Shown here: piece by piece, positions 45,521 through 49,837 of the stretch
How the letters are laid out: the number at the start of each line of letters is the position of its first letter
Numbering within the stretch: the stretch's first letter is position 1
Assembly: GCF_001642725.1 (NCBI RefSeq)
Contig: NZ_LSUQ01000004.1
Span: forward strand, 1 to 64,000
Source: Ferroacidibacillus organovorans
Lineage (GTDB): Bacteria; Bacillota; Bacilli; Alicyclobacillales; SLC66
Reading direction: 5' to 3'
DNA length: 64,000 bases
Made by a program: the position numbers and the translations under genes
The notes under the pieces: generated by a model
The model's input: only the letters and a program-made list of their open reading frames with translations
Told to the model about the DNA's origin: nothing
Database searches by the model: none

Positions 45521-46945
45521 CTATTCGATTTGTGTCACGTGCTTTAGGACATGTGTCGCGGCGCGCTTTCCATCTTTGATACAGTCGGGAATTCCCATGC
45601 CCCGATAGGCGGCTCCTGCCATGGCGAGACCAGGAAAATCGTGTAGCGCTTGCTCCATGCGCGCTACGCGATTTGCGTGGCCCACATCGTACTGTGGCAT
45701 CGAAATCGGCCAACGCGTGAGGCGGTAAAACGCGGGTGTGCGTTTTACCTTCCAGATCGCGTGAAGGTCATCCTCCACAGCTTTTACAATGTCCTCATCG
45801 CTTTGTTTCAAAATTTCCTCGCTACCATCTCTCCCTACATAGCAGCGTACAACCACTTGTTTTTGATCTAGAGACGATGGCCATTTTGTCGTGACGACTG
45901 TGCATGCGGTGATGGAAAGTCCGGCGCTGCGAGGAACGAGAAATCCGGTCATCTCACGCTGTTCGGGAAACGTGGCCGCAGCAAACCCGAGAATGACGGT
46001 TGCCGTCGACGCATAGCGAATGGATGGAAGCAGATCTGTGGTGATCCCTAACGTCTCTACGATCGCGGCAGCGGCGTGAGCGGGGGTTGCCAGGATCACA
46101 GCGTCTGCCTCAAACCGTGTGGGAACATTGTCAGAAAGGTAGACAAAGGTATAGCTACCATCCGGGTTTTTCTTTAGTTGCTTCACTGGCGCGTTCGTTT
46201 TGTAGTGGACGAATTCATTCGTTTTAGCGAATAGTGCCTCAGTGAGTGTTGACAGCCCGCCTTGCAAGCTGATGAACGGAGATGACGCGCTTTGCGACGC
46301 AGGGCGTTGAGTACGTTTTTTGCTTCTTTTTGCGCCAAGCAAAAGGCTGCGGTGTGTTCGAATCAAATGTTCAATGGCAGGGGTTGCATCAGCGATGCCC
46401 ATTCGGTCAATGTCTGCTGCGTGGATGCCGGCGAGCAGAGGTGCTGCGATTTGTTCCACGACCTCGTGACCAAAGCGTAAGCGCAACAAATGGCCTAGAG
46501 AAAGTGTCTCCAACTCGGAAGTCCTTGGCAAGACGAGATCGCCGAGCGCGCGCAGTTTGCCGCGCGGACTCAGAAGAGGCGACATCGCCATGGCAGACCA
46601 TCGCGCAGGGATTCCCATGTACAGATCGCGCGGAATGGGAAAAAGCGTGTGGTTTCGGGCGAGGGATGTTTGACCGGAGACGGCGTGAATGATTTGGTCG
46701 GAGATCCCCAGTTCGCGAAGCAAAGTGACGCCGTCTGGTTTTGCGGTGAAGATCGAATCAGGGCCGAGTTCAATCCAGAACTTTTGATCTCGATGTGTCT
46801 GAATTTTTCCGCCGATGCGAGATGTCGCCTCAAACAGTGTGCATTCCAGCGGTAGGCCGCGTTCTTTGCTCTGCTCCTGCAGATGGTAGGCGGCAGTCAT
46901 TCCTGTCACGCCGCCTCCAATGATCGCAACCCGGATGAGTCTCAT
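45521..46945 (-). CDS. hemY: Protoporphyrinogen/coproporphyrinogen III oxidase (HemY/CgoX type)
   Basis: 474 aa FAD-dependent oxidase. In Firmicutes the enzyme acts on coproporphyrinogen III in the coproporphyrin-dependent heme route (family knowledge). The FAD site V-A-I-I-G-G-G-V-T-G-M-T-A-A is at 6-19, ATSRIGGKIQTH near 41-52, HAADIDRMG near 176, and a C-terminal GNAMAGAAYRGMGIPDCIKDG-like segment (MAGAAYRGMGIPDCI). ATG 46945 forms an ATGA overlap with the upstream radical SAM gene, so the two are translated together. hemH, hemE and hemQ are not adjacent. Confidence 0.9.
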   Translation of the reverse strand: MRLIRVAIIGGGVTGMTAAYHLQEQSKERGLPLECTLFEATSRIGGKIQTHRDQKFWIELGPDSIFTAKPDGVTLLRELGISDQIIHAVSGQTSLARNHTLFPIPRDLYMGIPARWSAMAMSPLLSPRGKLRALGDLVLPRTSELETLSLGHLLRLRFGHEVVEQIAAPLLAGIHAADIDRMGIADATPAIEHLIRTHRSLLLGAKRSKKRTQRPASQSASSPFISLQGGLSTLTEALFAKTNEFVHYKTNAPVKQLKKNPDGSYTFVYLSDNVPTRFEADAVILATPAHAAAAIVETLGITTDLLPSIRYASTATVILGFAAATFPEQREMTGFLVPRSAGLSITACTVVTTKWPSSLDQKQVVVRCYVGRDGSEEILKQSDEDIVKAVEDDLHAIWKVKRTPAFYRLTRWPISMPQYDVGHANRVARMEQALHDFPGLAMAGAAYRGMGIPDCIKDGKRAATHVLKHVTQIE

Positions 46946-48024
46946 TCTGTTTGTGCCCCCATCTCCTTGCCGCCGCGCAGGGAGAGCGGCAAATAGGCGC
47001 AACCGGGGTCACTCTCCAACGGATCGCCTGTCACGGCAAAAGCGCGCGCACGTGATCCGCCGCAAATTTCTTTGAACTCGCACACACCACACTTTCCTTT
47101 GCGGAGTTTACGGTTTCGCAAGGAGAGCAGCAAGGGGCTCTCGCGATACAGCGTTGGGAGTGGCGTGCGCAAAACGTTTCCTATGGATACGGGAAGGAAC
47201 CCGGAAGGATAGACGTGCCCATTGTGCGATATAAAGATGAAGCCGTCCCCATCCGTGACATTTCGCCCAGGTGTGCGCTGACCATGTTGGCTTGTGATCC
47301 GCTGAAAAAAAGGAGCTTCTGTGGTTTTGATCGCAAATGGACGGATTTGAGTTTGTTCATAAAGCCACTGCAAAATGTCTTCGTTTTGCTGTGCGTCAAG
47401 CATCATGGAAGCGCGTCCTCGCCCTGTGGGGATCAGAAAAAAGAGACTCCACAGATCGATCTGGTGCTGTTCAGCGATGGCTGCGATGCCTTCCAGTTCA
47501 GTTTTGTTCCACGCTGTGACCGTCGTATTGATTTGGGTGGACAGTCCAGATTCCCTAAGGTTTTGAAGCGAGTTCATGGTCTCTTTGAATGAGCCGTGTA
47601 CAGAGCGGAAGCGATCGTGCGTAAGGTTTGTCGCACCGTCCAGACTGATTGCAAAGCGGGAAACGCCAGAGAGTACGGCACGTTGAAGGACGCTTTTGGT
47701 CAGCTTCGGGGTGACGCTCGCAGCGAGAGAGACGTGAACACCCTGGTTTACAGCATACTGAATGAGATCGAACAAGTCGGGTCTCTCTAAAGGATCGCCG
47801 CCGGTGAAGACGAGGAGGGGATGATCCATTTCCGTGATTTGATCGATCACGCGTTTTGCCTGATCGGTTGTAAGCTCGTCAGGCGCGCGGCGGGTTTGTG
47901 CTTTTGCGCGGCAGTGAACGCAGTGCAATTGACAGGCGCGGGTTAATTCCCACATGACGATGCGCGGGTGTTGTTCATACTGGAGCACACGCGTGGTTGC
48001 CGCAGAAGATTGAAGCAGTGCCAT
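46942..48024 (-). CDS. Radical SAM/SPASM protein of AhbD/NirJ-like type
   Basis: 360 aa. The radical SAM cluster motif C-x3-C-x2-C is CQLHCVHC at about 31-38, followed by LLVFTGGDPLERPDL near 70. The C-terminal SPASM part carries CGVCEFKEICGGSRARAFAVTGD and a further DPGC. The G-G-x-R-A-R-A-x-A-x-T-G-D pattern is typical of heme-d1/heme-b enzymes NirJ and AhbD. Known AhbD decarboxylates Fe-coproporphyrin to heme. Its coupling to the oxidase gene supports a tetrapyrrole role here, but the reaction is inferred. Peptide-modifying relatives share the fold. Confidence 0.8.
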   Translation of the reverse strand: MALLQSSAATTRVLQYEQHPRIVMWELTRACQLHCVHCRAKAQTRRAPDELTTDQAKRVIDQITEMDHPLLVFTGGDPLERPDLFDLIQYAVNQGVHVSLAASVTPKLTKSVLQRAVLSGVSRFAISLDGATNLTHDRFRSVHGSFKETMNSLQNLRESGLSTQINTTVTAWNKTELEGIAAIAEQHQIDLWSLFFLIPTGRGRASMMLDAQQNEDILQWLYEQTQIRPFAIKTTEAPFFQRITSQHGQRTPGRNVTDGDGFIFISHNGHVYPSGFLPVSIGNVLRTPLPTLYRESPLLLSLRNRKLRKGKCGVCEFKEICGGSRARAFAVTGDPLESDPGCAYLPLSLRGGKEMGAQTE

Positions 48025-48168
48025 TTGAAACGGCCTCTTTTCGCTTCTGAATTCAAAGATCAGTTCCTTTGAACTTATGATAAATCGGGTGCGGTCGTGA
48101 GGAGAGTTCCCTATGGACCATTCTTCCTAGATGGTTTGGAGGGGGGAGACTAGTAGAGAATGCCTAGT

Positions 48169-48295
48169 AGGGGTCAGAACTCTTCTGCGCATTGCCGCGT
48201 CAGCGTCAAACCTGCTCCGTCACGTACCAGGGACGTACGCTCCGTCCGCATGTTTGACTTGCTTTCTTGCACTGCTTGAAGCTTACCTGACCCCT
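48169..48295. repeat. 127-bp nested inverted repeat, candidate miniature mobile/REP-like element
   Basis: Ends AGGGGTCAG (48169-48177) and CTGACCCCT (48287-48295) are perfect inverted repeats. Inside, GTCAAAC (48205-48211) and GTTTGAC (48252-48258) are a second perfect pair, around a smaller CGTAC/GTACG hairpin. CTAGTAG occurs twice immediately to the left. It fills most of the gap between the MFS and radical SAM genes. No ORF is inside. Confidence 0.5.
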
Positions 48296-48314
48296 TTTTG
48301 ATCTCCCATCCTTT

Positions 48315-49649
48315 TTAGTGGTCTGGAAAAAAGGACTCTCCTGACGCTGTATCAAGGCTTGCGCCTTGCCCGGTTTCGACACCGCGGACGTACCAGGCAA
48401 TGGCACCTGCCAATCCGATGACCCAAATGAGGATGTTGAACAACGTGTAGGCGTTTAGGCTAAAACTCTGTGTGATATAGATCGTGGCGACATACAGACC
48501 AATGCTTACAAAACGCACAAATGCAGTGTACGTTCCGCGCGACTGTGTCGGCCACACTTCACCTTTTAAGGTATCCTCTGTGAGATAGCCGATGTTTACA
48601 AACAGGTTTAAAAGAATCAGCAGAATCCAGAAGAGCGCCAAATTTTTCGACCACGCACCGAGCGTAAGCCAAATCACGATCGTGAGCGCGACGGAACCGC
48701 CGTAACCGAGAAGCAACAGTTTTTTTCGACTCAAGCGATCCGCCCAGAATCCCAAGAAACCGGAGATGAGTCCTGTCCCTGTCGCGATCAGGACGATCTC
48801 TGATTTGAAGTTTGGAAAATAGTTAGGCCCTAATACATAGGTCATCAGACCAAACCCGGCGGCGCCTGCGAATGACGTTGTGATCGTTACGAACAGTTTG
48901 AGTGGAATGCCAACGCGGCGTGAGGTGGATGGCGCTTGCTTTGCCGCAGTTGTTGCCGTGCGTGCGGCGAGTCTGCGCGCTTCGTACTCTTCACGCCCGT
49001 AAAAGCGGTCGATCTCTGCCTGTGCACGTTCGTGGTAGCCCCTTTTTTCGAGCCATGGAATCGACTCGGGCGTGTTGCGCCGCGCCAGAAACATGACGAT
49101 GAGAACGGCGAGTAGTGTAACGGCAATCATCCCGCGTTGAAACGCAATCTGTTGTGAAGCGGAAAAGAGGGTGACAATCGCAATAATAACGCCGCCGAGA
49201 TTGATGAAATTAAGCTCCAGCATCATTGCCTTGCTACGATGTTTATGAGGCATCATCTCGTGGGACGCCGCCATAATCGTGTTCATTTCACCGCCGGCCG
49301 CAAACAGCAGGAGCGCGAGAAACAGAAGAATAAGTACATAGGTCTGGCTAAAGACGATGCCGATGGCGCCAATTCCATAGAGAGACATCGTCGTATAAAA
49401 CGTATTTTTCCTTCCAATCCGATCCGCGAGTGGACCGGCAACGGCGATGCCAATCACAAGCCAGATAGGAGCCCATGCGAGCAAAAGGGACTGAAGGCTC
49501 TTGGGCATGGTGACCCAACCTGTCGCGAAGGTGGCCATGCTAAAAATGTAGTTTTCGAGCAACATCCCGAGTCCAAAAGACCAGAATGACCAATTGTCCG
49601 TACGTGTCCAGTGTTCAACAGCATGAACGTTTGTTTCTTGGGATGCCAT
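48315..49649 (-). CDS. MFS transporter (sugar-porter-like)
   Basis: 444 aa with about 12 membrane helices. The cytoplasmic loop motif between helices 2 and 3 is visible as GPLADRIGRKN near 74-84, and repeated in the second half as FWADRLSRKKL. The central loop is long and charged (about 195-235). ATG 49649 has GAGGAGGG upstream. The substrate is unknown; the nearness to heme-related genes may be accidental because the 127-bp repeat separates them. Divergent from ftsE. Confidence 0.88.
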   Translation of the reverse strand: MASQETNVHAVEHWTRTDNWSFWSFGLGMLLENYIFSMATFATGWVTMPKSLQSLLLAWAPIWLVIGIAVAGPLADRIGRKNTFYTTMSLYGIGAIGIVFSQTYVLILLFLALLLFAAGGEMNTIMAASHEMMPHKHRSKAMMLELNFINLGGVIIAIVTLFSASQQIAFQRGMIAVTLLAVLIVMFLARRNTPESIPWLEKRGYHERAQAEIDRFYGREEYEARRLAARTATTAAKQAPSTSRRVGIPLKLFVTITTSFAGAAGFGLMTYVLGPNYFPNFKSEIVLIATGTGLISGFLGFWADRLSRKKLLLLGYGGSVALTIVIWLTLGAWSKNLALFWILLILLNLFVNIGYLTEDTLKGEVWPTQSRGTYTAFVRFVSIGLYVATIYITQSFSLNAYTLFNILIWVIGLAGAIAWYVRGVETGQGASLDTASGESFFPDH

Positions 49650-49837
49650 TTGCAAGATCCCTCCTCAGATTTAGGATGTGCGTGAGCGGAATTGATCATT
49701 CTTCTTAGCATCAGAATATCAGAAATGAAGAATCTTCCACAGGGTTTTTGACGATGGGTGTCGAATGTAAGATGTCGAATCACGCTGTCGAAGCATCGCG
49801 AAACAGCGCCTGTCGAATTATTCAATGGAGGATTTGC

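Follow-up and report, generated by a model that had tools for sequence, protein, structure and literature searches.

A dispersed palindromic element of Ferroacidibacillus organovorans, very probably a MITE moved in trans by an IS1182-type transposase

A palindrome found within 64,000 nucleotides of the Ferroacidibacillus organovorans genome (this whole stretch is referred to below as the window) belongs, as an old copy, to a family of dispersed non-coding elements. We put the probability at about 0.9 that the element is a MITE which an IS1182-type transposase mobilises in trans, in bursts that were followed by decay. What points to this mode of movement is the presence of the same 16-bp ends and the same 5-bp target duplication on one subclade of IS1182-related insertion sequences. 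That a transposase of the subclade actually moves the element is very probable, as an inference from sequence comparison. Among the readings offered in a preliminary description, the miniature transposable element is the one borne out, by multiple copies, terminal inverted repeats, 5-bp target duplications, a patchy distribution and absence from the corresponding site of a genome of the same genus, G001.

The palindrome sits between a radical SAM gene (46942-48024 in the ORF list, minus strand, starting at 48024) and an MFS gene (48315-49655, minus strand, ending at 48315); both gene names are taken from the preliminary description. The nested repeats recorded there were recovered exactly. The outer 9-bp repeat is perfect, AGGGGTCAG pairing with CTGACCCCT at 48287-48295 over a span of 127 bp, as is the inner 7-bp repeat, and the small hairpin is made of CGTAC (48223-48227) and GTACG (48235-48239). 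A T-run is present at the right end (48295-48299), and the reported lack of coding capacity holds, with no ORF of at least 80 aa inside 48155-48312. The cloverleaf-like fold is not what we obtained: the minimum-energy fold is a single long interrupted stem. The CTAGTAG direct repeat is present, at 48150-48156 and 48164-48170, but it is not a signature of the element, since its first copy aligns with the element-less G001.

Folded alone, the window palindrome gave a z of -1.62, and 14 of 200 shuffles were at least equally stable, an unremarkable single-sequence folding energy. It is on comparative evidence that the palindrome is a real unit, and the matches in genomes, the matches to a covariance model and the covarying stems take it beyond chance. 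The element is also longer than the 127 bp noticed at first, measuring about 155 bp in well preserved copies. The covariance model has one match only in the window, 48155-48312 (145.6 bits, E 1.5e-31, model positions 1-158), the window copy being itself among the sequences used to build the model. The features of this copy are listed in Table 1. No clean target duplication is left around it.

Table 1. Features of the element copy in the window.
Feature	Coordinates	Strand	Basis
Whole MITE copy, approximate outer limits	48156..48307	+	Covariance-model match 48155-48312 and alignments
Presumed decayed left terminus, GAGAATGCCTAGT vs GAGGTTGTTCAAAA in young copies	48156..48168	+	Alignment; may be old flank
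Left arm, preserved inner part of the terminal inverted repeat, AGGGGTCAG	48169..48177	+	Aligns with GGGGTCAG of other copies
Right terminal repeat, minus strand GATCAAAAAGGGGTCAG, 1 mismatch to GTTCAAARAGGRGTCAG	48287..48303	-	
Inner stem, left arm GTCAAAC, covarying helix 3	48205..48211	+	
Inner stem, right arm GTTTGAC	48252..48258	+	
Apical hairpin CGTAC-loop-GTACG, helix 5, nearly invariant	48223..48239	+	
CTAGTAG direct repeat, first copy ancestral flank	48150..48170	+	Alignment with G001

A BLAST count in the full genome, as the preliminary description had proposed, gave eight matches, five of them covering most of the element, and the sequence is thus multi-copy. On one contig of this genome (G000:C27, L004 1483-1822) two full copies and a fragment stand in tandem. 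Among relatives, 10 of 41 genomes had BLAST matches, the own genome counted in. Twenty-three copies from nine genomes went into the covariance model, which detected members in 21 of the 59 genomes searched within the order, with stricter filters (applied above 40 genomes); the other 38, many of them sisters and the same-genus G001 among them, gave no copy. BLAST finds in G001 one partial match of 47 bases, though the model finds none. By the model, the own genome holds 6 copies, G011 41, G032 38, G013 22 and G020 17, and G016, G004 and G417 hold at least 50 each, these last being lower bounds with up to 50 candidates scored per genome. Across 84 fetched loci there were 91 model matches. The window genome is placed in the same family as G015 and G016, and Sulfoacidibacillus belongs to the Alicyclobacillaceae in the NCBI taxonomy. 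Related acid-loving bacteria have seen the family expand, with separate bursts from one genome to another and decay afterwards. Neither the annotated plasmids nor the annotated phages had a match to the whole element at 1e-5. A genome-wide pattern scan returned at least 119 stretches, of which many, in unrelated phyla, look like chance occurrences inside genes.

The ends are best seen in the young copies of G011, G016 and G004, which are mostly 155 or 157 bp long (range 155-157 bp), start with GAGGTTGTTCAAAAAGGG and finish with CCCTTTTTGAACAGGCTC. Their termini are GAGGTTGTTCAAAAAG...CTTTTTGAACAGGCTC, and their terminal inverted repeats are GAGGTTGTTCAAAAAGGGG / GAGCCTGTTCAAAAAGGGG, the left one having decayed in the window copy. 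Counts of the end motif GAGNNTGTTCAAAAAGGGG are nearly balanced between the two orientations (forward and reverse, 31 and 31 in G011, 41 and 41 in G016, 77 and 72 in G004), and the reversed-pattern control gave 0 in all six genomes searched. In 73 of 101 unique full copies the 5-bp flanks are identical, as compared with 7.9 on average and at most 17 when the flanks were paired at random (1000 shuffles); the flanks of the other 28 are not identical, 14 of these being one base apart. Registers of 3, 4, 7 and 8 bp showed no excess, and 6 bp was seen in merely 2 of the 101. The duplicated target is AT-rich, T(T/A)(A/T)(T/A)A, and TTATA is the commonest form. The copies are mostly outside genes: 29 of the 101 lie for the most part inside an ORF of at least 120 codons, whereas for positions drawn at random from these loci the figure is 1543 of 2020.

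Three remnants of 27 bp, two in G011 and one in G016 (L159, on the minus strand, L160 and L079), keep both outer ends, with an exact TTATA duplication in two of the three, and look like deletions between the CAG triplets of the two ends. Unpaired ends in G011, G016 and G004 were considered as long autonomous copies, but those examined were short copies with a mutated partner end, truncated or nested copies, or contig ends. Several 279-bp composites of G016 (L173 6300-6578; L205, L235, L312, L313) contain a second palindromic element, with ends GGGGAGCAGTGATAA...TTATCACTGCTCCCC, nested in the MITE.

The radical SAM gene is also carried by G001 (protein 78% identical), where it adjoins the counterpart (94% identical) of the window gene beyond the MFS gene, presumably an FtsE-like gene. 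Homology reaches window position 48166 and restarts at 49713, with 18 bp in between in G001 versus 1546 bp in the window. The MFS gene and the element (48167-49712) are jointly missing from an otherwise collinear G001, so that the absence of the element is inseparable from that of the gene. Since G001, without the element, aligns up to 48166, bases 48156-48166, matched in our alignment to the decayed left terminus, may belong to the old flank instead. The comparison with an empty site had been suggested in the preliminary description, which named as its counter-case a single-copy sequence conserved at this place in distant relatives as a plain terminator; the element proved to be multi-copy and is not conserved at the orthologous site of G001.

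A 30-base query made from the ends pointed to an Alicyclobacillus fastidiosus plasmid (NZ_CP104068), which carries an insertion sequence of 1636 bp (L321 5006-6641) with a single transposase gene, TTATA on both sides and the ends GAGCGTGTCCGAAAAG / GAGGTTGTCCGAAAAG, its termini reading as GAGCGTGTCCGAAAAGC and GAGGTTGTCCGAAAAGC. The transposase matches PF05598 (DUF772) and PF01609 (DDE), both above cut-off. Its best NCBIfam match is IS1182 (NF033551, E 5.3e-32), at 111.3 bits versus a curated cut-off of 270, and we therefore regard the partner as an outlying IS1182-related subclade, not as canonical IS1182. An intact relative in G004 (C92, L322) is 1638 bp long, is flanked by TATTA on both sides and encodes a transposase 69% identical; a truncated one in the same genome, which is full of the MITE, has the exact MITE end GAGGTTGTTCAAAAAG after TTATA (G004:C37). 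The DNA that MITE and insertion sequence have in common amounts by BLAST to 13-17 bases, at the ends only.

We also asked how closely the end follows the transposase. Among the matches listed from 398 genomes of the class, an end within one mismatch of that of the MITE accompanies 7 of 8 subclade loci (L361-L368, at least 49% identity) versus none of 19 distant relatives (L369-L387, at most 37% identity), and where MITE-bearing genomes encode other IS1182-type transposases, none of the seven loci, representing six genes, has it. L326 is likewise among the autonomous-partner loci that bear MITE ends, and two more subclade copies show by eye 5-bp duplications, TTAAT in L367 and TAACA in L368. 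A Tn3-type partner was considered because on a Providencia plasmid a match to the end, 18 bases long, lies next to a Tn3 transposase; judging by the 160 bases around the match, we took this as chance.

The same element could instead be moved by a different transposase that shares the ends and is lost or unassembled in the genomes searched. Within the ten genomes searched for partners, the remaining relatives were one decayed copy (G032) and one fragment (G011), with a distant match alone in G020, and no subclade transposase match was found in G000 (the own genome), G001, G007, G013, G015 or G016. Several of these bear the MITE, as such an alternative would predict; the absence from the element-rich G016 carries little weight because G016 is a draft MAG. 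Against it, the 16-bp end and the 5-bp duplication track the subclade in the proportions just given, and G004 holds both the MITE and a subclade transposase. We consider a different transposase improbable.

Mobilisation by the subclade would then proceed as follows. The element encodes nothing and bears the 16-bp end of the IS1182-family subclade. A transposase produced elsewhere would recognise both ends, would excise or copy the element and would join it to a 5-bp AT-rich target, T(T/A)(A/T)(T/A)A, which would thereby be duplicated on either side.

The interior of the element is its one unusual point, since it covaries strongly across genera. An alignment of 18 copies, drawn from eight genomes, has 93.1% of the consensus-structure cells paired and changes on both sides in 22 of 42 pairs; the consensus structure was derived from the alignment on which it was tested, which favours structure, and the sequences are related. 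None of 500 shuffles reached either the pairing or the covariation value, and when partners were slid by 1-3 columns at most 45% of cells were paired. The inner stem varies by lineage while its pairing is kept, the lineage-specific pairs being CCAAGAAT/ATTCTTGG, CCCAAAAT/ATTTTGGG, CCCCAAAT/ATTTGGGG, GTCAAAC/GTTTGAC and CTGGACATGCG/CGCATGTCCAG. In G004 the 157-bp family is homologous though diverged, and its layout is unchanged. Selection acting on a single RNA strand would make G.U pairs more frequent than A.C cells. The inner helices of 86 distinct copies contain 30 G.U versus 96 A.C cells, a count dominated by few pairs and lineages; counted once per genome the values are 16 versus 22, which gives no clear strand preference and therefore singles out no RNA strand.

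One could suppose that the interior is a module selected for its folded shape, with stems rewritten in each lineage while the pairing and the near-invariant apical hairpin are kept. If so, it would be a structured DNA or RNA part that aids the movement of the element or its tolerance, for instance as the binding partner of a host or transposase factor. We hold this to be rather unlikely. The covariation may come from mutation instead, one arm of the palindrome being corrected from the other during replication.

The same data bear on the idea that the element is primarily a structured RNA or a cis-regulatory module that the host retains, such as a terminator or a hairpin for mRNA processing, with dispersal secondary. 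Its covariation, the invariant apical hairpin, a structure conserved over two families and the mostly intergenic copies are all what one would expect of such a module. It is difficult to reconcile, however, with the lack of conservation at the window locus, a copy number ranging from 0 to at least 50 among relatives, the target duplications and the balance of G.U and A.C cells. Rfam covariance models gave 0 matches at the gathering score over the whole window. As for a terminator between the two genes, which the preliminary description had proposed, we reject it because both neighbouring genes are transcribed on the minus strand, whereas it is on the plus strand that the T-run comes after the palindrome; the T-run is simply the CCCCTTTTT of the terminal repeat. 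We give a host-kept RNA or regulatory function a small chance. A smaller one by far, close to none, goes to a REP sequence moved by RAYT (TnpA-REP, a Y1 transposase), the other reading of the preliminary description. The element is indeed short, palindromic, dispersed and intergenic, and its own genome has a Y1 transposase. This sole PF01797 match (G000:C53, L009) is, however, of the IS200/IS605 type, being followed by a second gene that we take to be TnpB, and neither GGGGTCAG nor CAAAAAGG occurs within its 3.35-kb locus. Single-strand transposition by Y1 enzymes is not known to make target duplications; the element has 5-bp duplications and long paired ends.

Similar ends were seen on other elements. 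A different structured element of 147-155 bp occurs in Halalkalibacter, Alkalihalobacillus and Evansella (L213, L248, L305, L285 and others). Its ends, GAGTCTGTTCAAAAAGGG...CTTTTTGAACACGCTC, are of the same kind, exact 5-bp duplications such as TTTAA and TTTTA flank several of its copies, and its left end holds a near-perfect 45-bp palindrome. Against plasmids it gave one weak match, to a Pantoea gene (E 0.03), which we took as chance. Plasmids of Paenibacillus carry elements of 67 bp (L315 6006-6072) and 178 bp (L318 6006-6183) that have the same ends, are bounded left and right by TTATA and apparently represent further MITEs of this transposase group. Single GAGNNTGTTCAAAAAGGGGG ends also stand directly before start codons in Oceanobacillus, Aneurinibacillus and Paenibacillus vini (L207 4877, L234 1618 and L262 6654), with the G-run at the position of a ribosome-binding site; these are possibly domesticated ends, or chance.

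Many intergenic palindromes of Alicyclobacillaceae-type acidophiles can now be named and linked with one subclade of transposases, and the annotation loses a spurious terminator or RNA call. Prokaryotic MITE transcripts form stable stem-loops, according to a review (PMC10969869). Stems that are lineage-specific and conserve their pairing make a clean set for asking why prokaryotic MITEs keep structured interiors, a structure that the transposase seems not to need.

The literature searched on Alicyclobacillus miniature inverted elements and on Sulfoacidibacillus insertion sequences yielded no earlier description of the family, and a literature search for the 11-base end as an inverted repeat gave insect mariner elements only. 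The family is new, and its kind is familiar, since IS1182-derived MITEs are in print (PMC11578231, PMC3852290). MITEPye1 of Paracoccus yeei is a non-autonomous element with terminal repeats like those of the IS1182-family ISPye18, and its mobilisation by an IS1182-type transposase has been proposed; it resembles the window family, by description, in its direct repeats, intergenic location and long stem-loops, but it lives in another host phylum and has 1-3 chromosomal copies versus tens (PMC11578231). The MITEs of ISMac2 (IS1182 family) in Methanosarcina acetivorans, of 160 and 169 bp in 14 and 7 copies with repeat-size figures of 26/4 and 25/0, share by description the IS1182 partner; their host is archaeal, and their direct repeats are apparently 4 and 0 versus 5 in our family (PMC3852290). 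The bcr1 repeat of the Bacillus cereus group is likewise dispersed in Bacilli in tens of copies with an AT-rich 5-base motif, TTTAT, but a mobility like site-specific recombination is proposed for it, and the passages compared name no transposase partner (PMC6542083). REP/RAYT systems, finally, also consist of small intergenic palindromes, whereas the window family is without a RAYT-like partner bearing its ends and has target duplications.
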